Origin: Pseudomonas sp. B21-040
GTDB lineage: Bacteria > Pseudomonadota > Gammaproteobacteria > Pseudomonadales > Pseudomonadaceae
Length of the DNA: 64,000 nucleotides
Assembly (NCBI RefSeq): GCF_024748695.1
Contig: NZ_CP087176.1
Span: 2,535,501-2,599,500, forward strand
Direction: 5' to 3'
Shown: piece after piece, positions 35,432 through 46,579 of the stretch
Layout of the letters: each line of letters starts with the position of its first letter
How positions within the stretch are numbered: the stretch's first letter is position 1
Notes under the pieces: model-generated
The model's input: the letters and a program-made list of their open reading frames with translations, nothing else
Told to the model about the DNA's origin: nothing
Database searches by the model: none
Position numbers and translations under genes: made by a program

Positions 35432-36058
35432 ATGAGCAACGTTCCATACAAGCGCCTGAACAAAGACGACGCTGTTGTCCTGCTGGTCGACCACCAGACC
35501 GGCCTGATCTCGCTGGTCCAGGATTTCTCGCCAAACGAGTTCAAGAACAACGTGTTGGCTCTGGGCGACGTGGCCAAGTTCTTCAAACTGCCGACCATCC
35601 TCACCACCAGTTTCGAAAACGGCCCGAATGGCCCGATGGTGCCTGAGCTCAAAGAACAGTTCCCGGACGCGCCGTACATCCCGCGTCCAGGCCAGATCAA
35701 CGCCTGGGACAACGAAGATTTCGTCAAAGCCGTCAAAGCCACGGGCCGCAAGCAATTGATCATCGCGGGCGTGGTCACTGACGTTTGCGTGACCTTCCCG
35801 ACACTGTCGGCGCTGGCCGAAGGGTTTGAAGTGTTCGTCGTCACCGACACCTCGGGCACGTTCAACGAAACCGTGCAGCAAGCGGCGTGGGCGCGCATGG
35901 CGGCGGCCGGTGCTCAACTGGTGAACTGGTTCTCGGTGGCCTGCGAGCTGCAAGGCGACTGGCGCAACGACATGGAAGGCCTGGCGAACCTGCTGTCGCC
36001 ACGCATTCCCAACTACCGCAATTTGATGAACAGCTACTCGGTGCTGACGTCGAAGTAA
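35432..36058 (+). CDS. Isochorismatase-like cysteine hydrolase (YcaC type)
   Basis: 208 residues with the YcaC-like arrangement: catalytic Asp in AVVLLVDHQTGL, Lys in RKQLIIAG, and Cys in GVVTDVCVTFP. GAGG precedes the ATG. It is the fourth gene of the DoxX operon (70 bases after the amidohydrolase) and is closed by an intrinsic terminator. Substrate unknown; the order amidohydrolase then amide/ester hydrolase suggests stepwise degradation of one compound. Confidence 0.9.
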   Translation: MSNVPYKRLNKDDAVVLLVDHQTGLISLVQDFSPNEFKNNVLALGDVAKFFKLPTILTTSFENGPNGPMVPELKEQFPDAPYIPRPGQINAWDNEDFVKAVKATGRKQLIIAGVVTDVCVTFPTLSALAEGFEVFVVTDTSGTFNETVQQAAWARMAAAGAQLVNWFSVACELQGDWRNDMEGLANLLSPRIPNYRNLMNSYSVLTSK

Positions 36059-36074
36059 GTTCTGCCCCAATGAA

Positions 36075-36104
36075 AAATGCCCGCCAATGTGCGGGCATTT
36101 TTTT
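36075..36104 (+). terminator. Rho-independent terminator
   Basis: AAATGCCCGC pairs with GCGGGCATTT around CAATGT and runs into TTTT; 16 bases after the isochorismatase-like gene. Confidence 0.92.
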
Positions 36105-36109
36105 GCCTT

Positions 36110-36256
36110 GTAGCAGCTGACGAGCAGCGCGAGGCTGCGTTCGGCTGCGGAGCAGTCGTAAAACCTGAGTGCGAGTTTTGTCTGACACACCGCATTGTTT
36201 GATTTCACGACTGCTTCGCAGCCGAACGCAGCCTCGCAGGCTCGACAGCGGCTACA
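36110..36256. repeat. REPIN
   Basis: Left arm TTGTAGCAGCTGACGAG...GAGGCTGCGTTCGGCTGC and its inverse (CGAACGCAGCCTCGCAG...GACAGCGGCTAC) enclose about 50 bases. Same family as 28084-28280. Confidence 0.85.
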
Positions 36257-36338
36257 CGGGCCAGGCGCGAGATTAATGAGGGTGTCGATAATTCAGAAAG
36301 CGGCTATAAAGTGTTCGACTGTCAATCAGGCTGTGACA

Positions 36339-37235
36339 ATGAACCCGTTCGAAGATATGCGTATTTTTTGCCAGGTCATGGACTCCGGCAGCTTCACGGC
36401 TGCGGCAGATCAATTGGGGCTGTCCAAGCAATTTGTCAGCCGGCGCCTGATGCAACTCGAAGAGCGCCTGGGCGTGCGCTTGCTCAATCGCTCGACCCGG
36501 CGACTGGACGTCACGCCGCTGGGGCAAAGTTATTACGAATCGGCCTTGCGCCTGCTCGGTGAAGTCGAGCAAGTGGAGCAGGGCATCGCCGGCCAGACCA
36601 CCGAGCCACGGGGCACGATTCGCATCAGCGCACCCTTGTCGTTTGCACTGGCGCATTTGGGCAGCCTGCTGCCGGTGTTTTTGCAGCGATATCGTGATGT
36701 CACCGTGGAAGTGGACCTGAGTGATCGCCCGGTGGACTTGCTCGGCGAAGGCTACGACCTGGCCTTGCGCATCGGCATTCTGGAAGACTCGACGCTGATC
36801 GCCCGGCGCATCGCGTCGATCCAGCGCGTGTATTGCGCCAGCCCGACGTACCTGGCCGAGCGCGGCACGCCGCTCAAACCCGAAGACCTGCACAGCCATG
36901 ACTGCCTGCCGTATGGCCACAGTCGTCAGGTGCAATGGCGATTCGACGGGCAGGGCAAACCGCTGACCGTCAATGTCACAGGCCGGATGCGGGTCAACAA
37001 CGGTGATTTGCTCAAAGACGCGGCGATTGCCGGGATGGGGATTACTTACTTGCCGACGTTTATCGTCGGTGCAGCCTTGAAGGACGGCAGGCTGGTGCCG
37101 GTGCTGGACGCGTTTCGGCCTGAGCCGCTGAGGTTGTCGGCGGTGTATCCGCAGCACCGCCAGAGTTCGCGGCCGGTACAGGCGTTTATCGAGTTTTTGC
37201 GTGAGCGGCTGGATCGGGTGGAAGAGGGGGGTTAA
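36339..37235 (+). CDS. LysR family transcriptional regulator, site of island insertion
   Basis: 298 residues; ATG 36339 begins MNPFEDMRIFCQVMDSGSF, a classical LysR start, and the longer frame overlaps the REPIN. HTH: FTAAADQLGLSKQFVSRRLM. The effector domain ends with GMGITYLPTFIVGAALKDGR and FIEFLRERLDRVEEGG. The last 69 codons (from 37009) are duplicated almost exactly at 43899-44105, flanking a six-gene AT-rich island. Thus the present 3' end was either brought by the island or left by it; the two copies differ in their last eight residues. Confidence 0.92.
   Translation: MNPFEDMRIFCQVMDSGSFTAAADQLGLSKQFVSRRLMQLEERLGVRLLNRSTRRLDVTPLGQSYYESALRLLGEVEQVEQGIAGQTTEPRGTIRISAPLSFALAHLGSLLPVFLQRYRDVTVEVDLSDRPVDLLGEGYDLALRIGILEDSTLIARRIASIQRVYCASPTYLAERGTPLKPEDLHSHDCLPYGHSRQVQWRFDGQGKPLTVNVTGRMRVNNGDLLKDAAIAGMGITYLPTFIVGAALKDGRLVPVLDAFRPEPLRLSAVYPQHRQSSRPVQAFIEFLRERLDRVEEGG
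37009..37215 (+). repeat. Island-flanking direct repeat, left copy
   Basis: 207 bases at the 3' end of lysR, matched at 43899-44105 with two mismatches (at 37144 and 37152, approximate). Both copies end at GGATC, after which the sequences diverge. Confidence 0.9.
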
Positions 37236-37250
37236 GGTTGACGTTACGAC

Positions 37251-37272
37251 CTGTGGGAGCGAGCTCCCACAG
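37251..37272. terminator. Hairpin between lysR and the island operon
   Basis: CTGTGGGAGC pairs with GCTCCCACAG around GA, between converging genes. It lacks a T-run, so termination is uncertain; it may be a collapsed REPIN. Confidence 0.5.
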
Positions 37273-37308
37273 AAAGGCGTCAGTTAACACGTTTGTCACA
37301 CTCGAATC

Positions 37309-37995
37309 CTATATCTCGTTGAGTACGCTCTGTACCGCACTAACCGCTCTATCAAGCACAGCTTCCTCACAGAGGTCGGTCGTATCGATCCTCACACAAT
37401 TTGCCATTCCACATTGCTCATAGCTGGATCGAACCCTATTTTGATACGCAATGAAACTTTTTAGGCGGTCTTCATTACCGCCATCATAGGCGCCGCTCTC
37501 ACTAAGGCGGAAAGCACCCTTTCTTTGTGCTGCGAGTGCGGGGTCAACATCCAGGAAAATGATGGCGTCCGGTTTTCTAATTGTTGAGAATGTTGTTAAA
37601 GCTTCTTCAGCTAAGTTTTTATCTTTAAGTAAAAAGCGTGCTAAGTATTTATAATACCAACCATCAGCGATGCAACTAATGCCGGAGCTTATTAGCGGTC
37701 TGATGGCGGCATAGTCTGTGGCATGAAACCAGGCGGATATTAAACTTATCCAATGACTATCACCCAATTGGTCCAGAGGGGCGTTATCCGGATAATCCCA
37801 AAGAACTTCACGTAGACGAGACATGTGAAACTCTGTATAGCCTGATGATACCGGTGGTCGGTTTTTATCTATATAGTCGATTTTTGAGTGGGATTCAAAA
37901 ACTCTGTCAAAAGTTGCTCTCGCTATAGTTGATTTTCCTGCTCCGTCAGTGCCTTCGAATGCGATAAATATTGGTTGGCCAGATGAACCGCTCAT
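37309..37995 (-). CDS. Thymidylate kinase-like P-loop kinase
   Basis: 228 residues, near the length of bacterial dTMP kinase. Walker A is FIAFEGTDGAGKST, and the strand AIIFLDVDPALAAQRKG matches the Tmk region preceding the lid. The usual DR(Y/F) element is replaced by IADGWYYKYLAR, so the substrate may not be dTMP. The ATG overlaps the stop of the radical SAM gene as ATGA, so it is translationally coupled to it. It is the last gene of the island operon. A chromosomal tmk is expected elsewhere, so this is probably a pathway-specific kinase. Confidence 0.8.
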   Translation of the reverse strand: MSGSSGQPIFIAFEGTDGAGKSTIARATFDRVFESHSKIDYIDKNRPPVSSGYTEFHMSRLREVLWDYPDNAPLDQLGDSHWISLISAWFHATDYAAIRPLISSGISCIADGWYYKYLARFLLKDKNLAEEALTTFSTIRKPDAIIFLDVDPALAAQRKGAFRLSESGAYDGGNEDRLKSFIAYQNRVRSSYEQCGMANCVRIDTTDLCEEAVLDRAVSAVQSVLNEI

Positions 37996-39128
37996 GCAAA
38001 TCCCCCTAAGTAGGCTTCAGTATCTAAAGAGTTTCTGCCACTACCTTCGATTAATGGTTGAAATCCTTCTCTGTGATATATATCCGACATTGTTTTCCCA
38101 ACCTTCTTCAGGAAGTCTATTGATGGACGCTGTCGGTTAGAGTATTGAGAGCCTGCGTCAGGGTGAAATACTGCTACAGCAGGTACCACTCCCATCTCCC
38201 CAAAAAACTCAATGCCCTCAATGATTGACTCCAGCGGTTCCATCCCTGCGACAAATCCTGCATATACATTGCCACGACCTAGAACTTCGACAGCCGCTTC
38301 AAAAGCGGATAAAAATAGTTCGCGAGTGTAATCTCGAGATTTTCCAGGGCAAACTTCATTGAATAAAATTGGATTGAATACTTCTATGCTCATCGACATA
38401 TTGTTGCCATTTTTTTTAAAGCGATCAAAAAGGCGAAAATCCTTAGGAGGCATAGAAATCAAGTGGTAGTCCAAGGTGCTCTGAAGGTTGTATTCTTTTA
38501 CTCGCTCCAGTAAATCCAAGTGTATTGAGTACCCTTTGTCATAGTTTGGAATCGTTCCACCGTTTAATAGGACCCTTTTATATCGTCCGTGCTCTTCTTT
38601 GATTGCGGTAGCTACAGCTTCACCAGCGATATCACCTTTTATTCGCATTTTATGGTCTGATAATGATTCTCTTGCTGATCCCATGGAGCAAAACTTGCAT
38701 TCACTACCGGTGTTAAAGTAATAACAGTGGCCCGGGGAAAAGATTCCGAGGGTCGAATTTCCGTATACGGTTATATGTTTTTCAAATAATTCGCTATTGC
38801 TGAGGTGCATTCCATAAGATTTAGGTCTCTTGGGGAATGTAATTTTAATAGTGTTATCTCCAAGCTTTAGGACAGGAATTTGTTCTTCTAAGGAGATCCG
38901 GTAGTTCGAGTCTGGATTATAATTTGCAGCACAAATAATCTGTCCGCCTAAAATTATCTCTTGCGGAGTGCGAGTGATCGAGTTGAGAATAATGCTATCT
39001 CCTGTCCCGTAAGCTCGCCTCTTTTCAATATGCTCCGTTCGGGATTGGAAATCCTCTAAGAACTCTTCAGAAAAATTAACTCCATTGCACAATAGTTCAA
39101 GTTTCAATCTCACAGTTTCGGATAGCAT
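37992..39128 (-). CDS. Radical SAM enzyme with C-x8-C-x2-C cluster motif
   Basis: 378 residues; GGAG before the ATG. The cluster region is GHCYYFNTGSECKFCSMG, spacing C-x8-C-x2-C instead of the canonical C-x3-C-x2-C; the alternative is that only the last two cysteines of this stretch are cluster ligands with another partner. VLLNGGTIPN resembles the GGE-like SAM-binding motif. MSMSIEVFNPILFNEVCPGK and YAGFVAGMEPLESIIEGIEF follow the barrel pattern of biotin-synthase-like radical SAM proteins. No B12-binding domain is seen. The reaction is unknown; it is the most likely chemistry-defining enzyme of the island. Confidence 0.85.
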   Translation of the reverse strand: MLSETVRLKLELLCNGVNFSEEFLEDFQSRTEHIEKRRAYGTGDSIILNSITRTPQEIILGGQIICAANYNPDSNYRISLEEQIPVLKLGDNTIKITFPKRPKSYGMHLSNSELFEKHITVYGNSTLGIFSPGHCYYFNTGSECKFCSMGSARESLSDHKMRIKGDIAGEAVATAIKEEHGRYKRVLLNGGTIPNYDKGYSIHLDLLERVKEYNLQSTLDYHLISMPPKDFRLFDRFKKNGNNMSMSIEVFNPILFNEVCPGKSRDYTRELFLSAFEAAVEVLGRGNVYAGFVAGMEPLESIIEGIEFFGEMGVVPAVAVFHPDAGSQYSNRQRPSIDFLKKVGKTMSDIYHREGFQPLIEGSGRNSLDTEAYLGGFA

Positions 39129-39156
39129 GGTTTTCTCCAGTTAAGTTAAACGTACA

Positions 39157-39993
39157 CTACAAGATAAGTCGTATCAGTTCTGGGGAGGACAAGGCAATCA
39201 CAGTTCCTGAGTCTGACAGGGCTGCCGGTGAGGGAGGCAGGGAGTGTCTAGGGTTTCCTGCTTTATCGAATAGAGCACCTCCCGCTTCTCTTAAAATCAA
39301 CTCTGCTGCGGCAATATCACAACTACGCTCATGTCCTGGTGTATCGATATCAATAAAGGCGTCAAGTACCCCGGCGGCGATGAGACATATTTCTAGTGAG
39401 GAGCATGAGTAAATGCGAATTTTTCTAGCTGACCATATAAGCTTTTGAATTGTGTTTTTTGCTCTATCTTCTTTTGGGCGATGGAAGGATATGTGCATGT
39501 CTTCTATACGGTTGACGTTGCGGGCATAAAGTCTTTTCAATATGATCGGCGACTGAAGGTAGGATCCCTCGCCCAATGCAGCGGTATAGACCAAATCTCT
39601 TGATAGATCATAAATCCAGCCAAATATATACGCATCTTGGTGGTAAAGAGCCACGCTTGATGTATACGCTGGAAATCCTAAAACTGCGTTGTGTGTTCCA
39701 TCTAGAGGGTCTATAAGTAGGTAGAAATTTTCATTTTCGCCAAAAGTAGTTGCTGAAGTGCTTTCTTCGGAATAAATTGTTATTCGAAAACTTATATTGG
39801 AGAGGCAGTCATATAATATTCTCTGACAATCTAAGTCATGCTGTGTCTGTGAGTCGTTCCAGTGTTTTGTATTTGTGGTGACAACGGGCAAGCCGGCCAG
39901 AGTTCCCGCCCAGTAACGGCGCAGTTGTTTTCTCGCTTCGTAAAGGCATTCCTCAATTTCGGCAATATACTGATGCTTGAATAATGGTCTCAT
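39157..39993 (-). CDS. Inositol monophosphatase-family phosphatase
   Basis: 278 residues from ATG 39993, which overlaps the preceding stop as ATGA; a longer frame (40053) would run further into the upstream gene. Metal-binding motifs of the IMPase/FBPase/CysQ superfamily are complete: IYSEES (Glu), LLIDPLDGTHNAVLG (DPxDGT) and SCDIAAAELILREAGG (CD-xAA in place of WDxAA). It should remove phosphate from a sugar phosphate, nucleotide or PAP-like compound using Mg2+. Within the operon it may act on an intermediate made by the neighbouring kinase or phosphoribosyltransferase-like enzyme (inference). Confidence 0.88.
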   Translation of the reverse strand: MRPLFKHQYIAEIEECLYEARKQLRRYWAGTLAGLPVVTTNTKHWNDSQTQHDLDCQRILYDCLSNISFRITIYSEESTSATTFGENENFYLLIDPLDGTHNAVLGFPAYTSSVALYHQDAYIFGWIYDLSRDLVYTAALGEGSYLQSPIILKRLYARNVNRIEDMHISFHRPKEDRAKNTIQKLIWSARKIRIYSCSSLEICLIAAGVLDAFIDIDTPGHERSCDIAAAELILREAGGALFDKAGNPRHSLPPSPAALSDSGTVIALSSPELIRLIL

Positions 39994-41048
39994 GTCGATT
40001 CTTCCATTATCAATTGTATATGCCACAGGTTCCTGTTTAATCTCGGAGCACAAGACTTTACTTCAAATAGTTTTCCGGCGTAAACGGCGTAATCCGCGCT
40101 CATGAAGGCACTGAAGGATTTAGGGAATAGCGCTACAGTTTTAACCTCAATATGATAGCCAAGTTTTTTCCTGATTGTGTTTGCTGCCTGCTTGAGGCTT
40201 CCTCCGGTATAGGCTTTGTCTATAATGAGCCATGGTTCGTTCGATGATGTTAGAGGAGGGAAAATATCTTGGAAAGCATTAGTTCGGCTCAATAGGCTAG
40301 AGTCATTTTGCCGATGAACCTCCGAGAAAAAAATATTGGAATCTCCGGTTGCTGCCAAGTAGCCAAGCGCAATCGGTAAACCTGCCGAGAGTAAAAAAAG
40401 TTTATTTGTTGATATTTTTTCGATTTGCGACCAGATAGTATGGTCTTCGTAAATATACCTGGTGTTGAGCACGGAACAGCTATCCCAATGGTCGTGTGAT
40501 ATGTACTTACTATAAAAAGCACAAAATCTATTGTGGAATTCTAAGGTTTCGTTGCTTGTGTTTATAAGTGGCCGATTTTTAGTAATGCCGCGGGTGGTTT
40601 TGTTTATAAGGGCTGGTGGCACGTCTCGACGAGTGCGCGTAAATGCTTCGTTAACAAGCTTGTTTTTTAAGATTCTAAGTTGCGTTTTTGATGGGCCAGA
40701 AATTGCTATTTCTGGTGATAGGCCGTCGCCATTGATTCTACATGCCTCTGTGGCCGAAATTTTTCTTGTGCTTAAATTTAAGTAGTCCCATATGCGCACG
40801 ATTTCCTGACCAGACATGCCGTTATAAATGGGGTCGAGGTTGCTTAAATCGCAAATCATTTCTTCAGGGTGTCGAAGTTCGAACGACGCTCTTTGAAGAT
40901 GACAACCATTGAGTATGGCGTTGCGATAAGTGTAATAATCGTTTGTTTGTACGCCACTTAATGTTCGCCAGCCATGATGCTCACTGATTATTGTGATGGA
41001 GTTTGTACGCTGGTTTAGGGAATGCAGTGCGGGATTTTCCTGGTGCAT
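39990..41048 (-). CDS. Phosphoribosyltransferase-like protein
   Basis: 352 residues; GAGGAG before the ATG. The only clear motif is PWLIIDKAYTGGSLKQAANTIR near residue 280, corresponding to the PRPP-binding loop of type I phosphoribosyltransferases (hydrophobic strand, acidic residue, TGG). The upstream LFLLSAGLPIALGYLAATG could be the matching nucleotide-loop strand. The N-terminal 200 residues are unfamiliar. Overlaps the IMPase gene as ATGA. The function, if PRTase, would be joining a base or acceptor to a phosphoribosyl unit. Confidence 0.65.
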   Translation of the reverse strand: MHQENPALHSLNQRTNSITIISEHHGWRTLSGVQTNDYYTYRNAILNGCHLQRASFELRHPEEMICDLSNLDPIYNGMSGQEIVRIWDYLNLSTRKISATEACRINGDGLSPEIAISGPSKTQLRILKNKLVNEAFTRTRRDVPPALINKTTRGITKNRPLINTSNETLEFHNRFCAFYSKYISHDHWDSCSVLNTRYIYEDHTIWSQIEKISTNKLFLLSAGLPIALGYLAATGDSNIFFSEVHRQNDSSLLSRTNAFQDIFPPLTSSNEPWLIIDKAYTGGSLKQAANTIRKKLGYHIEVKTVALFPKSFSAFMSADYAVYAGKLFEVKSCAPRLNRNLWHIQLIMEEST

Positions 41049-41087
41049 GGTTAACTCCTCTCAGCAGTGGAAGAATAGACAGTTAGT

Positions 41088-42425
41088 CTAAAAAATGTAT
41101 TTAGTGTCTTGTCTTAACTCCTGATTAACTGGCTGTCCGCTATTTTTTAAAACGCTACGTAACCGCCAGAGCAGAAGCAGCATCAGGCAAAATGAACAAA
41201 AAACTAGCGCTACAAATAGGGAGTGCACGCTATAGTCGTAAAGTGATAGCAGTCCGATTGAAATTATTAGTCCAAGAACATTGAGTGAAAATATAGTTAG
41301 CAGCGTAGGGATCCAAAAATCGTTCATGCTTCTCAAAGTCATTCGAGTTACGACATAAACGTATTCAAATATTAAGAATGGGATCGCGATGAAAATGTTT
41401 TCCTCAATCAATCGTCTGGTTGGCGCATCGTTTGTGTAAATTGCTGATATGTCTTCTTTTAAGAAAAAGCATGCTAGTAAAAATGGAGTCAATATTAATA
41501 GTCCGAGCTTTAGTCCCTCAGAATAGGTCGCTCTCAACAGTCGGAACTCTCGTAGACCATAGTGCCGCGCGGCTACAATTCCCGTTGCGTTTCCCACTCC
41601 TATTGAGATCATATATACGATACTTAAAAAATGAAGCGATGCCTGATATGCCGATACGCTCGTGTCGCCTATGGTTTTTGAAATAAGAGAGAACATGAAA
41701 TATAAAAAGCTTTCGCCTCCAAAGCAAATTGCCATCGGTAGGCCTTTGATGAAGTAATTCACATATATGGTTTTTGCGATATGTTGTGAGTGTCTAAATT
41801 TTGAAATGTGTTGATGGATTTTTAAATTAAAAAGCAAGATTGCAATGCTAGCGAAAAAGTATCTCAAGCCTGAGTATGTCAGGGCGAAATAAATAATATT
41901 GCTATTCGAGTTTGTCAAAACTAATAGTGTGCAGGCTAAGGCGAGAGTGGCAATGAATGCCCATGTGTATATCAGTTCATATTTGGTTATTTTTATTGCG
42001 TTGAAAAAGTTAAAGATAACTATCTGTGCGTATATGGCGGGAAGTGAAAGGGATAGTGCTAGTAAGGCTTTAATGCCTTCGAGTTCCCCGTTGTCTGTAA
42101 GTGATCTCGATGCGACGATGCCAAGCAAAACTATAGCGAAAACGATAATTACCCCTAAGAATATTGCTATTCTAAATGAGGTAATTAATTCGATTTCAAT
42201 TTCGTCCGTATTTAGATTAGTCGATCTAGCTATTGTTACCAGCGAACCTGAGAAAAATCCGATTGCTACCACGGTTAGAAAAGAAATCAGCGCCCATGCG
42301 AGTGATGCATGACTAAGTGAATTAACTATGTAATGTCCAATGAACGAAAAATAAAGTAGTGAGGCAATCATCTCTCCTATTCTGGAAGATATCAGCGGGA
42401 TGGCTATCCGGGTAATTTCCATATC
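41088..42425 (-). CDS. MATE-type multidrug/metabolite exporter
   Basis: About 445 residues from ATG 42425, where CAGGGG lies 8 bases upstream and TM1 begins directly (MEITRIAIPLISSRIGEMI); the open frame extends to GTG 42515 overlapping the preceding gene. Twelve hydrophobic segments are visible, with the MATE-like repeats FFSGSLVTIARS, GVGNATGIVAARHYG and FEYVYVVTRMTLRSMNDFW. As the only transporter in the island it probably exports the pathway product. Confidence 0.85.
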   Translation of the reverse strand, partial: DMEITRIAIPLISSRIGEMIASLLYFSFIGHYIVNSLSHASLAWALISFLTVVAIGFFSGSLVTIARSTNLNTDEIEIELITSFRIAIFLGVIIVFAIVLLGIVASRSLTDNGELEGIKALLALSLSLPAIYAQIVIFNFFNAIKITKYELIYTWAFIATLALACTLLVLTNSNSNIIYFALTYSGLRYFFASIAILLFNLKIHQHISKFRHSQHIAKTIYVNYFIKGLPMAICFGGESFLYFMFSLISKTIGDTSVSAYQASLHFLSIVYMISIGVGNATGIVAARHYGLREFRLLRATYSEGLKLGLLILTPFLLACFFLKEDISAIYTNDAPTRRLIEENIFIAIPFLIFEYVYVVTRMTLRSMNDFWIPTLLTIFSLNVLGLIISIGLLSLYDYSVHSLFVALVFCSFCLMLLLLWRLRSVLKNSGQPVNQELRQDTKYIF

Positions 42426-42505
42426 TGGCAGCCCCTGTTCGTTAAAAAATACAATGAAGGCCTGAAGTGAAATAAAGCCTGTTGCGCTGGAAAAATATAC
42501 TCTCC

Positions 42506-43564
42506 TCAATCCCACTGTTTGAGTAGACTAATCAAAGGTGGAGTACCCTTCGCAGCGAAATATTTTTTCCTGAAAAAGTATTCGCACGTTGATATTTTGT
42601 GTTTGGTTTGTTTTCGTTTGTTGAACTCTTTATCTAGGGCCGAAAGAGATTTTTGTGTTGATGGGTAAACTTTGGACGTTTTTAGAAGTCCTTCAATGGC
42701 TAGAAATACCTGGTCCATGTATATCAGCGTGTCTTCAATATATGATCTGCATTCAGTTTCTGTGATTGCACCTCGTCTGGATAAGGAGAAAAAGCTGGCT
42801 TTTATACTTTCGTATCCGTCCACTCTGAAGATATTTGAATACACCCACTTGTAGTGTTTGTTTGTTGTGCCTGTTAAGTAGGTGAAGCTCATTGTTGTTT
42901 TTAGCATCATGTCCCGGGCTATTTCACAACCCATCCAAAGATTTCCCGACTGCCAGCAACCCTGGATATCTTGAAATGCATAAAATACGGGGAGTTTTTC
43001 ACGATGAGCGACATAGATGTGTTTTTCTACAGGTATCCTGGATTTCAGTTGGGTAAATGTTTCCTCGTTTTCTAATGCGTATCCAATCAATGATCGATGG
43101 ATGACGTTGTTCTCTGTGTTTGACAGCACTGGACCATAGAGAAACCGCTGATCGTCAGAGATCTCATCAAATGCTGTCTCAATTTTGGTAATGATGTTTT
43201 CCAATTCGGAAAATGTTATGTAATCAGCATCAATGTGAATGCTTGTTTCGCCATAAAAATTGGTGGTGTTATGAACTTCTTCGTCTTGAGTTATGTAGTG
43301 GTAATTTATATCTGTAACCAGCGCGTGTTCGGATTTTTTTATGCTGCTTGCTTTAGGTCGTTGTTCGCACAAAATGATGCAGTCGATATCGGAATGAATG
43401 GTACCAATTCCCTCGATCAAAGAGCCTGAGATGACGAGGATGCTAGAGTTCTCTAAAAAAGCCCTTTCTCGTAAATATTTTTTTGGGATTGAAATTTTTC
43501 CATTTAATATAGATATCTCATTTTCTGAAATTTTTGACTGCTCGGTTTTGATTAACGGGATCAT
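42506..43564 (-). CDS. DNA polymerase beta-like nucleotidyltransferase
   Basis: 352 residues; AAGGAG 8 bases before the ATG. Near residue 45 VISGSLIEGIGTIHSDIDCI gives the nucleotidyltransferase signature GS-x10-DxD (here SDID), and a third acidic residue may lie in IHIDADYITF. The C-terminal 200 residues are helical and unfamiliar, resembling the accessory domain of aminoglycoside nucleotidyltransferases in length only. First gene of the island operon. It could tailor the product or give self-resistance by adenylylation; both are inference. Confidence 0.8.
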   Translation of the reverse strand: MIPLIKTEQSKISENEISILNGKISIPKKYLRERAFLENSSILVISGSLIEGIGTIHSDIDCIILCEQRPKASSIKKSEHALVTDINYHYITQDEEVHNTTNFYGETSIHIDADYITFSELENIITKIETAFDEISDDQRFLYGPVLSNTENNVIHRSLIGYALENEETFTQLKSRIPVEKHIYVAHREKLPVFYAFQDIQGCWQSGNLWMGCEIARDMMLKTTMSFTYLTGTTNKHYKWVYSNIFRVDGYESIKASFFSLSRRGAITETECRSYIEDTLIYMDQVFLAIEGLLKTSKVYPSTQKSLSALDKEFNKRKQTKHKISTCEYFFRKKYFAAKGTPPLISLLKQWD

Positions 43565-43898
43565 ATGGGTCGCTCCTTGCGTAAGTGTGAGCAGATATAA
43601 GGTGTGTTGTGGTAAGTGTGAGCATGGTGATTTGAATAGCGTCAGCTGTGTAAGTGTCTTAGTTTAGGGTTGATGGCTTTTTCGTACTAAAACCCTAGTG
43701 TCGATCTTGGCGAGTCGTCAATGTTTGTATAGAAAATCAGAATGGTCTTACGCGTATTGAAGTCCTGGGGTTTAAACAGCGAAAGAAACTTCCTTTTTTG
43801 TTGAGAGATTGTTCCTACAGAGTTGGCGCCCGAGAGCGTGGGGTTGTTCAAGGCAGCAGGCTTTTGATCTTTATCCCTGAAGGCATAAAGAGGTGAAC
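43565..43898. promoter_or_regulatory. Island operon upstream region with three GTAAGTGT repeats
   Basis: GTAAGTGTGAGCA occurs at 43581-43593 and 43612-43624, and a shorter copy GTAAGTGT at 43650-43657; spacings are 31 and 38 bases. They sit just upstream of the first island gene and look like regulator sites. The rest (43680-43898) holds only a weak 72-codon TTG-start frame that I reject. Confidence 0.45.
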
Positions 43899-44125
43899 TG
43901 CTCAAAGACGCGGCGATTGCCGGGATGGGGATTACTTACTTGCCGACGTTTATCGTCGGTGCAGCCTTGAAGGACGGCAGGCTGGTGCCGGTGCTGGACG
44001 CGTTTCGGCCTGAGCCGCTGAGGTTGTCGGCGGTCTATCCGCTGCACCGCCAGAGTTCGCGGCCGGTACAGGCGTTTATCGAGTTTTTGCGTGAGCGGCT
44101 GGATCAGACTGAAGACGGACTCTAA
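43899..44125 (+). pseudogene. 3' fragment of lysR, right island repeat
   Basis: Bases 43899-44105 duplicate 37009-37215 with two mismatches, one changing Gln to Leu. The frame runs LLKDAAIAGMGITYLPTFIV to RLDQTEDGL and stops at 44125. No HTH or start precedes it. It is likely the original 3' end of the lysR gene separated by the island, because the REPIN following it is the normal Pseudomonas downstream context. Confidence 0.88.
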
Positions 44126-44140
44126 GCCTCACACAGTTCC

Positions 44141-44233
44141 CCCTGTAGGAGTGAGCCTGCTCGCGATGGCGGAGTGTCAGACGACATCAATGTTGAATGA
44201 CATATGGCTATCGTGAGCAGGCTCGCTCCTACA
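44141..44233. repeat. REPIN
   Basis: Inverted pair of GTAGGAGTGAGCCTGCTCGCGAT type REPs flanking about 40 bases; same type as 19231-19326. Confidence 0.85.
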
Positions 44234-44265
44234 TTGATGTGTGGATGACCTGGGCTTAGTGGTTA

Positions 44266-45240
44266 TCAGGTCCTTTTGTCATCGCCGTTGACATGAACAC
44301 CGCGGTCATCGCCGACTTCGCCGTTGGCATGAACACCTCGGTCATCACCGACTTCGCCGTTGGCATGAACACCGCGGTCATCACCGACTTCACCATTGGC
44401 GTGTACGCCACGGTCGTCGCCGATTTCGCCATTGGCGTGAACACCATTTTGGTTGTGGGATACTTCACCCGAGCGATGAGCGCCATTTTGGTTGTGGGAC
44501 ACTTCGCCGGAGCGATGAGCGCCATTTTGGTTGTGGGACACTTCGCCGGAGCGATGAGCGCCATTTTGGTTGTGGGACACTTCACCGGAGCGATGAGCGC
44601 CATTTTGGTTGTGGGACACTTCGCCGGAGCGATGAGCGCCATTTTGGTTGTGGGACACTTCACCGGAACGATGAACCCCATGGTCGTCGCCGATTTCACC
44701 GGCACGGTGAACGCCATGATCGTCGCCGATTTCACCGGCACGATGAACGCCATGATCGTCGCCAGGTTCGGCGTGCGTGCCATTGCGCCCGGAGTTGGAG
44801 GAGGCTGTGTTGCCGGCATTACCCGGGCCATGGTCGCTGCCGCTGTGACTGCTGCCGCTGTTGCCGCCGCTGCCACTGCCACTACTGCCGCCACTGCCGC
44901 TTCCACCGTGACCACCGCTGTTGCCACCGCCACCGCCACCACCATTACCGCCGCCACCACCGCCATTACCGCCGCCGCCACCGCCATTACCACCGCCGCC
45001 ACCACCATTGCCGCCGCCACCACCACCATTGCCGCCGCCGCCACCACCATTGCCACCGCCGCCATGACCTCCGCCACCGCCGCCACTACCGCCACCGCCA
45101 CCACCGCCCCCTCCGCCACCACCACCACCATCCTTGGCCTGAGCGGTCGACATGCTGGACAGACTGTCCGGTATCAATACGGTAGACGCCGACAGGACTG
45201 CGCCAATAGCTACTGCAAGTAAAAGCTTGTTGATGTGCAT
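44266..45240 (-). CDS. Secreted glycine-rich, histidine-containing repeat protein
   Basis: 324 residues from ATG 45240 (GGAG 6 bases upstream). A signal peptide (LLLAVAIGAVLSAS... STAQA) is followed by about 100 residues of GGGGGN/GGGGGG repeats, a Ser/Gly/His linker, then 13 tandem units of 12-13 residues: three GDDHGVHR(A/S)GE(I/V), six SHNQNG(A/V)H, and four GDDRGVHANGEV-type. Each unit has a conserved His and acidic residues, which could bind metal ions, including calcium or manganese. No enzyme motif. Its position before gspF/gspG and near mnxG suggests a secreted matrix or metal-binding partner, which is inference. The overlapping opposite-frame ORFs are artefacts of low complexity. Confidence 0.8.
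   Translation of the reverse strand: MHINKLLLAVAIGAVLSASTVLIPDSLSSMSTAQAKDGGGGGGGGGGGGGGSGGGGGGHGGGGNGGGGGGNGGGGGGNGGGGGGNGGGGGGNGGGGGGNGGGGGGGNSGGHGGSGSGGSSGSGSGGNSGSSHSGSDHGPGNAGNTASSNSGRNGTHAEPGDDHGVHRAGEIGDDHGVHRAGEIGDDHGVHRSGEVSHNQNGAHRSGEVSHNQNGAHRSGEVSHNQNGAHRSGEVSHNQNGAHRSGEVSHNQNGAHRSGEVSHNQNGVHANGEIGDDRGVHANGEVGDDRGVHANGEVGDDRGVHANGEVGDDRGVHVNGDDKRT
44284..44770 (-). repeat. Tandem 36- and 39-base repeats
   Basis: Within the glycine-rich gene: six 39-base units (44445-44690) nearly identical to one another, flanked by 36-base units on both sides (four left, three right). Prone to copy-number change. Confidence 0.9.
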
Positions 45241-45272
45241 GTCGTTCTCCGTCTTCTTGTTCAGGGTTGGAA

Positions 45273-45367
45273 CGTTGATGAACAATGCAACGTGCTGCTG
45301 GATTCAGTTAATGAACACCCCAGCGTTCAGATTTATTCAGTTGTATCGTTGATAAAAAATGCAACGT
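45273..45367 (-). promoter_or_regulatory. Two CGTTG-N11-CAACG operators before the Gly-rich gene
   Basis: Sites at 45273-45293 and 45347-45367 share the sequence CGTTGAT-N7-ATGCAACGT with only three differences and are each imperfect palindromes. They start 33 and 107 bases upstream of the Gly-rich gene and fit regulator binding. Confidence 0.5.
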
Positions 45368-45391
45368 ACCGCTCGAACCTGTTGCAGAGGG

Positions 45392-46579
45392 TCAGTGAAT
45401 GCTGGAGGCCAGCTCGAAAATCGGCATGTACATCAGGATCACGATGACCCCGATCAACAAGCCGATGAAGGTCATGAGCAGCGGTTCAAACAGTCGTACA
45501 AACCATTCGATCCAGCGACTGATTTCTTCGTCGTAGAAGTCGGCGCTGCGTTCCATCATTTGCCCGAGGTTGCCGGACTGCTCGCCAGCGCGCAGCAAGC
45601 GCAGGGACACTGGGGTCACGAGGTGATTGAGCTCGAGCGCGGCCGACAGCGATTGGCCCTCACGCACCCGTTCGCAGGCTTCGTCCAGGCGTGTGCGGGA
45701 GGCCACGGTGAGCAGGCCCCGCACCATGCCCATGGCCGTGACGAGGGGAATGCCGCCTTGCAGCAAGATCCCCAGCGAGCGGTAGAAGCGCGCCAGTTCA
45801 TACATGAAGATGCGTTGATGGACTGCCGGGAGTTTTTCGATCAGGCGGTCGACGCCCCGACGAAAGGCCGGTTGGCGCTGGAGGAAGGTGAGGGCGACGA
45901 TGAGCGCCAGCAACCCGCCGAAGAATTCGCCCTGGTGCGCATGAAGGAACATCCCGCTGCTCATCAGGACTTGTGACATCCACGGCAGGTTCGACCCCAA
46001 GCCTTCGAACACCAGGCTGAAGCGCGGCACCACATAGCCCATCAAAAACAACACCACGCCACCTCCCACCACCAGCAACAGCATGGGGTAGATCGAAGCG
46101 CTGACGATTTTCTGCCGGACTTCGTCCATGCGCTGGCGATAGCTGACATAACGGCCCAGCGCTTCGCCCACGGCACCGGTCTTTTCACTGGACTGGACCA
46201 GCGCCACGTACAACGGCGGGAACACCGTCGACAACTGGCCCAATGCCTGGGAGAACGACTTGCCCTCATACAGCAGGCGCACCAGTTCACTTAAGGTTTT
46301 ACGGGCCTGTGGCGCGGTTTCTTTTTCGGCCAGGCTTTCCAGCGCATCGATCAGCGGCAGGCCCGCATTGAGCAACGTGGTCAGCTCCTGGCTGAACAAC
46401 ACCAGGTTGAAGGTCTCGCGCTGGCGAAACTGCAGCGAGAGGAAATGCCGCTCGGCATGCAGGCTGACCACCCGCAGGCCCTGGTCCTCGACGATGCGCC
46501 GGGCTTCGCTGTGGCCGGGGGCCTCGACTGTCATCGAGACCACGCCGGCTTTACCCACGGCTTTGAGATGAAAGCGCAT
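45392..46579 (-). CDS. gspF: Type II secretion inner-membrane protein GspF
   Basis: 395 residues, the normal GspF/PilC length. Two T2SSF domains: FSQELTTLLNAGLPLIDALE and YELARFYRSLGILLQGGIPL, each followed by the EGKSFSQAL/EGQSLSAAL and SSEKTGAVGEAL/AGEQSGNLGQMM pattern. Three membrane segments (YPMLLLVVGGGVVLFLMGYV, FFGGLLALIVALTFL, LLMTFIGLLIGVIVILMY). It is the platform protein of a type II system. It is 12 bases after gspG on the same strand; the remaining assembly genes are at 60.5-64 kb. Confidence 0.95.
   Translation of the reverse strand: MRFHLKAVGKAGVVSMTVEAPGHSEARRIVEDQGLRVVSLHAERHFLSLQFRQRETFNLVLFSQELTTLLNAGLPLIDALESLAEKETAPQARKTLSELVRLLYEGKSFSQALGQLSTVFPPLYVALVQSSEKTGAVGEALGRYVSYRQRMDEVRQKIVSASIYPMLLLVVGGGVVLFLMGYVVPRFSLVFEGLGSNLPWMSQVLMSSGMFLHAHQGEFFGGLLALIVALTFLQRQPAFRRGVDRLIEKLPAVHQRIFMYELARFYRSLGILLQGGIPLVTAMGMVRGLLTVASRTRLDEACERVREGQSLSAALELNHLVTPVSLRLLRAGEQSGNLGQMMERSADFYDEEISRWIEWFVRLFEPLLMTFIGLLIGVIVILMYMPIFELASSIH

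Follow-up and report, generated by a model that had tools for sequence, protein, structure and literature searches.

A six-gene island beside lysR in Pseudomonas sp. B21-040 as a candidate operon for an exported nucleotide-type compound

Results

Gene content of the island

Here, we analysed a 64-kb window of Pseudomonas sp. B21-040 (positions 2,535,501-2,599,500 of its 6.75-Mb single-contig genome) and found an island of six minus-strand open reading frames bracketed by repeats of a lysR 3' end. In order of transcription these are NT (nucleotidyltransferase), MATE (exporter), PRT (possibly related to phosphoribosyltransferases, PRTases), IMP (inositol-monophosphatase-family phosphatase, IMPase), rSAM (radical SAM enzyme) and tmk (kinase). 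A previous reading made from the letters alone (the sequence-only reading) had taken the segment for an imported small-molecule pathway with its own exporter; the 207-bp repeats with two mismatches and the six same-strand, AT-richer genes that it described agree with our coordinates and GC values. The GC fraction is 0.39-0.44 across the 1-kb segments from 38 to 44 kb and 0.49 in the 37-38 kb segment, which straddles the island edge, against about 0.61 for the surrounding chromosome region; the remaining segments lie at 0.57-0.67, save four within the first 7 kb at 0.50-0.56. The features, with the basis of each assignment in brackets, are:

37009..37215, plus strand: lysR 3' end that completes the intact lysR and is followed by its own tail (repeat alignment)
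37309..37995, minus strand: Tmk-like P-loop kinase, 228 aa (PF02223 and TIGR00041 scores)
37992..39128, minus strand: variant radical SAM enzyme, 378 aa (NF045502; CX8CX2C cluster motif)
39157..39993, minus strand: inositol-monophosphatase-family phosphatase (PF00459; starts of homologues)
39990..41048, minus strand: PRTase-like protein PRT, 352 aa (Pfam-less; C-terminal half weakly similar to uracil phosphoribosyltransferase, UPRT)
41088..42422, minus strand: MATE-family exporter (PF01554; starts of homologues)
42506..43564, minus strand: NT, predicted Pol-beta-fold nucleotidyltransferase, 352 aa (predicted structure, invariant residues)
43687..43742, minus strand: conserved upstream element, promoter-like (TCTGATTTT box, TTGACG, ACTAGGGT)
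43899..44105, plus strand: second lysR 3'-end copy, detached from the gene (repeat alignment)

Matches to the MATE protein start at query residue 32 in four loci (L028, L030, L031 and L036; L and G numbers denote loci and genomes) and earlier in other loci. MATE thus probably starts with the ATG at 42422 and not the GTG at 42515, in which case its apparent overlap with NT is an artefact of start choice. Two ATGA overlaps hold with the likely starts: in L027 and L028 similarity to the IMPase starts at residue 20-21, the IMPase start is probably 39993, with a TTG at 40053 as a possible alternative, and PRT and IMP therefore overlap by ATGA, as do rSAM and tmk.

Among 17 upstream regions, the box occurs together with TTGACG in 12 and TTGACG together with the downstream element in 13, by patterns that were composed after inspecting the same sequences, without a shuffled control. 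A repeated CACACTTAC motif upstream of NT is present in the window and is not kept in the other 16 upstream regions. An Rfam scan of 36000-45400 returned no riboswitch or other RNA at the gathering threshold, and the six genes, which occupy nearly the whole island, gave no Pfam or NCBIfam match to a recombinase; silence of Rfam, PADLOC, NCBIfam or the listed structural matches is no proof of absence.

Predicted protein families

Neither NT nor PRT matches a Pfam or NCBIfam model above cut-off. The predicted structure of NT (predicted local distance difference test score, pLDDT, 92.9) matches ANT(4'), AadA and LinB, with defence nucleotidyltransferases ranking lower. Both the fold and the GS...DxD motif of Pol-beta-fold small-molecule nucleotidyltransferases (ANT-like) are present in the model, and residues S46, G47, D59 and D61 are invariant in 23 aligned sequences. 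This supports the assignment of NT as a predicted Pol-beta-fold nucleotidyltransferase, ANT-related in fold. The family name given to NT by the sequence-only reading is thus supported by structure prediction, while its PRTase-like label for PRT finds weak support. Indeed, the C-terminal half of PRT, which carries a loop (LIIDKAYTGGS) like that binding phosphoribosyl pyrophosphate (PRPP), gave a weak hhalign match to UPRT (E 0.0012, loops in register, probability 19.5%), and we regard the resemblance to UPRT as a faint one. Prs and Hpt profiles gave no hhalign signal against PRT; a script chose the sequences of both sets, and among them one Prs row is possibly in the wrong reading frame. Structure prediction of PRT from a shallow 6-row alignment reached a pLDDT of 35.

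The radical SAM protein scores 323.6 bits with the variant_rSAM model NF045502 (cut-off 125), a broad model with signal in 7 of 14 control genomes and above cut-off in 1. Its cluster cysteines C135, C144 and C147 (CX8CX2C) are invariant in 24/24 aligned sequences. It fails the MSMEG_0568 model (97.4 bits, cut-off 303.7), and a nitrilase is absent from the six genes. We know of no described reaction for this radical SAM subfamily. The phosphatase reaches 112.6 bits with PF00459 (cut-off 27) and matches 12 NCBIfam equivalogs, none at its cut-off, and the exporter reaches 89.2 bits with PF01554 (cut-off 24.9) and 84.8 with TIGR00797, under the cut-off of 147.4. The Tmk-like kinase scores 33.5 bits with PF02223 (cut-off 27) and fails the dTMP kinase model TIGR00041 (39.6 bits, cut-off 83.25), a model with which a dTMP kinase encoded elsewhere in the genome scores 180.7 bits. 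Judged from these scores, the island kinase is not the housekeeping dTMP kinase; it is nearer to a kinase beside a distant NT relative (L075; 30%, E 8e-27) than to the host enzyme (26%, E 3e-6). A second Tmk-like host gene (L139) was considered as part of a cluster and set aside, its surroundings holding no NT cluster by eye; its product (L139 7614-8279) has very large proteins as neighbours, which by eye resemble those of phage tails.

Recurrence and shared evolution

Is this gene set a unit that recurs elsewhere? A collection scan with PRT gave five Pseudomonas loci beyond the window (L004-L008). Counting the window genome in each case, PRT was found in 3 of 194 relatives' genomes and, across the genus, NT in 16 of 398. 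Ten of these 16 have the full set of six genes, with MATE split in two of the ten; one lacks MATE, two have another core, two are degraded and one has only a distant NT; for G114 and G044 the stretches span NT to the start of rSAM, and tmk is assumed from their match to L006 and L007. In the degraded clusters (L029 and L037), internal deletions leave NT, tmk and fragments of MATE and rSAM.

Collection scan and genome search together yielded 13 distinct complete loci, and NT, PRT, IMP, rSAM and tmk stand in the same order in all 13. Scattering of the six genes among unrelated neighbours, which had been named beforehand as the outcome that would speak against a unit, was not what we found. MATE, where present, lies between NT and PRT; it is intact in nine loci, split in two (L028, L030) and absent from two (L007, L008), so that the claim of an own exporter holds with this qualification. 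Pairwise distances among the six proteins correlate with r of 0.86-0.96, uncorrected for shared host ancestry. The median ratio of nonsynonymous to synonymous substitution rates (dN/dS) is 0.07-0.13 for the five enzymes (10-36 pairs each, >80% identical) and 0.185 for MATE, from one pair. By these sequence comparisons purifying selection acts on the cluster genes, which evolve together as a unit; judged by selection, the cluster is functional.

A PRT search of 369 genomes of the class returned G000 itself alone, and a radical SAM query at E 1e-60 against 275 genomes of the order of G1136 gave one match, 24% identical to the window's enzyme, in an unrelated context. Relatives of PRT and of rSAM also occur beyond Pseudomonas. 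Among 18 PRTs at <=54% identity, 10 have a longest contig of the same length as that of an rSAM match, an indirect sign of linkage, and NT was not seen on these contigs. PRT and rSAM appear to be the deepest pair of the cluster.

Insertion sites and mobility

The two lysR-end copies align over 207 columns with 2 mismatches, and the sequences diverge beyond the repeats. The tail of the copy at 43899..44105 resembles L026, L060 and L066, while L059 starts more like the copy at 37009..37215. By their NT-side flanks, 16 loci fall into six chromosomal sites, two of them with a variant cluster (L032 and L036): a site at a PNPOx-like gene, which we named from its sequence, accounts for ten loci, the lysR site for the window and L029, and L007, L008, L032 and L036 each stand alone. 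Grouping by the tmk-side flank is less tidy, with L005 and L006 separate from the other eight PNPOx-site loci. GM21 (L004; in reversed orientation, L026) is represented by a small contig, which likewise ends in lysR.

Sites free of the island were found in relatives at lysR (L059, L063 and L064, among seven relatives' lysR stretches) and at the PNPOx-like gene (L142 and L143), which supplies the comparison with island-free strains that had been proposed. Together with the foreign GC, the patchy presence in 16/398 genomes and the six sites, they bear out the view of an imported unit. A duplicated end of the PNPOx gene occurs in L005 (196 bp at 84.7%) and in L033 (40 bp at 92.5%). In L033 the far copy leads on into what is, in L142 and L143, the native sequence downstream of the gene; in L005 similarity beyond the gene falls in a dispersed repeat and is uninformative on which copy is native. 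No duplicated gene end was seen in the other 11 of 14 loci examined, bar two weak short matches in L030. tRNA-targeted integration was rejected, as the 64-kb window holds no tRNA gene. The simplest account is that a fragment or circle carrying the island and a donor gene end integrated through a single homologous crossover, or that an integrase acted and has since vanished. GM21 fits this account poorly: its tmk-side lysR copy (L026 1-260) has the tail type found with the NT-side copy in the window, and the contig ends within the repeats.

Judged from these flanks, the island is mobile within Pseudomonas. Carriage by plasmids or phages found no backing. PRT had no match in 72,556 plasmid records, nor did a Pontibacillus homologue used as query; a PRT relative was confirmed in none of 24 candidate stretches of viral contigs; and phage records gave one partial match of 26%. 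NT matched two rhizobial plasmids at 23-24% identity, and the radical SAM plasmid matches listed were distant relatives of 23-39%, the best of which (L068) has a gene context different from the island. There, on an Agrobacterium pusense plasmid (L068 7723-12638), two radical SAM genes, a NUDIX gene and GalE are consecutive, one radical SAM protein being 33% identical to that of the window.

Exchangeable cores and distant relatives

The variant clusters L032 and L036 retain NT (74 and 65% identity) and MATE (59 and 49%). Between the two (L032 10545-13784, L036 6292-9540), PRT, IMP, rSAM and tmk are replaced by an acetate-kinase-like protein (by Pfam for L032, by resemblance for L036), a 176-185-aa protein that has no match, and a protein of NAD fold that weakly resembles AdoHcyase; L036 additionally carries a HIT-like gene, below cut-off. 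Wider searches found NT in 3 of 349 genomes across the phylum (that of the window counted) and in 4 of 283 in the order of G1040 (G1040 counted). Distant contexts were taken from L069, L070, L074, L075, L147 and L148, with G1556 left out, and are listed here with that of L038:

L038: TauD-like, DegT, NDK
L069 (annotated): dTMP kinase, major facilitator superfamily (MFS) transporter, orotidine monophosphate (OMP) decarboxylase, ATP-grasp, aminotransferases, NUDIX, nucleoside phosphorylase
L070 (by eye or blast, unannotated): Tmk, OMP decarboxylase, ATP-grasp, second NT
L074: NDK-like below cut-off, C26 amidotransferase, aminotransferase; MFS by eye
L075: Tmk, NDK, class III aminotransferase, formyltransferase, GGACT; MFS by eye
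L147: aminotransferase, GMC oxidoreductase, sulfotransferase, ATP-grasp-like; MFS and flanking transposases by eye
L148: phosphonopyruvate decarboxylase, MFS, P-loop protein without family match

In other proteobacteria, distant relatives of NT thus lie near nucleotide-kinase-type genes and exporters, and NT, a phosphotransferase and an exporter look like a second, reusable module. The NT match in L148 is partial (E 5e-9) and overlaps the phosphonopyruvate decarboxylase gene (L148 7353-9391; TIGR03297, 347.1 bits, cut-off 312.5); no gene for phosphoenolpyruvate mutase was recognised by eye in the inspected part of that stretch. The cluster at L147 204-11799, of about 0.48 GC, lies between transposase-like genes (by eye).

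Close to the island, an inverted repeat with 35-nt arms, 94% complementary, lies just upstream of lysR (36129-36237). On the other side, positions 44266-45285 encode a glycine-rich protein whose tandem repeats form families of 22 and 6 copies, and next to it follow genes that by eye resemble type II secretion or pilin genes.

Discussion

Based on the foreign GC, patchy presence, shared evolution, purifying selection, conserved NT and radical SAM motifs and duplicated host gene 3' end, we propose that the island is an operon, spread by horizontal transfer, for the biosynthesis and export of a small molecule of nucleotide type, a reading to which we give a probability of roughly 0.47. A biosynthetic role is the most likely one, and from the enzyme families we infer a nucleotide- or sugar-phosphate-derived product. 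Of what the sequence-only reading concluded overall, the imported unit is supported and the exporter is qualified. Two observations weigh slightly on the other side and make a defence role a little less improbable: the poor PRTase controls, and the defence-protein matches of the NT model.

Protein families and gene linkage suggest the following mechanism, the order of steps being our reconstruction. PRT, possibly UPRT-like with an extra N-terminal part of ~200 aa, would transfer ribose 5-phosphate from PRPP to a base-like acceptor, and the variant radical SAM enzyme would remodel the phosphorylated intermediate. The IMPase-family phosphatase would then take off a phosphate, and the Tmk-like kinase and the ANT-like NT would re-phosphorylate and nucleotidylate the compound, the nucleotidyl group being either part of the final conjugate or a cap that keeps the compound inactive in the producer. 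Finally, MATE would export the product, with another transporter acting where MATE is missing.

It is possible, if doubtful, that NT marks an undescribed and widespread class of natural-product clusters, each of which would combine exchangeable cores with NT, a phosphotransferase of Tmk, NDK or acetate-kinase type and an exporter; the Pseudomonas form would then be a new pair of PRTase and radical SAM enzyme making an unprecedented ribosyl scaffold, moved in integrase-free cassettes that carry the 3' end of their target gene.

The retention of NT and MATE despite core replacement in L032 and L036, and the similarity of NT to antibiotic adenylyltransferases, would also be expected of a self-protection pair, in which NT adenylylates a toxic product that MATE pumps out, and PRT, IMPase, radical SAM enzyme and kinase make that product, not necessarily a nucleotide. 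We hold this to be unlikely, as NT lies furthest upstream and ranks with the best-conserved cluster proteins (75-88% identical to that of the window), whereas MATE is the most divergent and is missing from L007 and L008, where NT persists.

Radical SAM routes to chain-terminating nucleotides exist, with viperin as the model, and the island might be an intracellular defence or stress system in which the radical SAM enzyme and the nucleotide kinase make a chain-terminating or signalling nucleotide, or in which NT is a defence nucleotidyltransferase. We consider this improbable: at E 0.1, PADLOC gave no match for the five proteins other than the kinase, whose matches are weak (12-24 bits), the radical SAM enzyme falls in variant_rSAM, ANT-type matches of NT outrank the defence ones, an exporter is usually present, and the PRT relatives sought in viral contigs were unconfirmed. 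Least probable of all is that the operon serves to salvage, break down or detoxify an unusual nucleotide or sugar phosphate, MATE being a drug-type efflux pump: the IMPase, PRTase-like and kinase families include salvage enzymes, MSMEG_0568, the closest radical SAM family that has a name, adjoins Nit6803-family nitrilase genes on many plasmids, and L069 has a nucleoside phosphorylase gene and also ABC transporter genes nearby, but the island has no importer or regulator, and the aminotransferases, ATP-grasp, formyltransferase and exporters of the sister NT clusters look biosynthetic.

If the biosynthetic reading is true, a small operon that is complete or nearly so in 11/398 genomes of the genus (two of the 11, G114 and G044, covered in part) yields a compound outside the classes made by nonribosomal peptide synthetases and polyketide synthases or as ribosomally synthesized and post-translationally modified peptides, and standard natural-product predictors would probably miss it. 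Isolates with the cluster, relatives with empty sites and natural core swaps offer a test system. Two protein families without Pfam models (PRT and NT) and one radical SAM subfamily are brought to notice, and the NT profile can be used as a probe for further clusters.

Relation to known systems

That a biosynthetic gene cluster may lie on a genomic island is already known; the gene set itself was not found described. The earlier statement that no such cluster is on record holds within open-licence PubMed Central papers, where we found none with this set, a description in subscription journals being possible.

NT shares its overall fold in the model with the antibiotic adenylyltransferases ANT(4'), AadA and LinB, but it is only ~7-14% identical to them, longer, and part of an operon of biosynthetic-type enzymes. 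The radical SAM protein belongs to the same enzyme family as NF045502 and MSMEG_0568; members of MSMEG_0568 are ~23-29% identical to it among the plasmid matches listed and lie beside nitrilase genes, of which the island has none among its six. In the CMP-tagged phosphonates, such as FR-900098 and fosfomycin, the small molecule bears a nucleotidyl group during biosynthesis, and the cytidylyltransferases of these pathways differ from NT in fold. A further likeness lies in L148, where a distant NT relative overlaps phosphonopyruvate decarboxylase, whereas the window cluster contains no phosphonate gene.

The producers of octosyl acid and polyoxin-type nucleosides are actinobacteria, and to our knowledge these pathways use other genes and include no PRT, NT or Tmk-like gene. 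They are nevertheless a precedent for the second and third proposed steps, as the described part of octosyl acid biosynthesis proceeds by radical SAM chemistry and then dephosphorylation toward the nucleoside (PMC5365060). The formyltransferase and aminotransferase of L075 raised the gvg cluster for 4-formylaminooxyvinylglycine (FVG) as a candidate, which we rejected since the main text of its description mentions no nucleotidyl, kinase or radical SAM function (PMC8064604). As described there, it does resemble the island in being a patchily distributed Pseudomonas cluster for a small antimetabolite.

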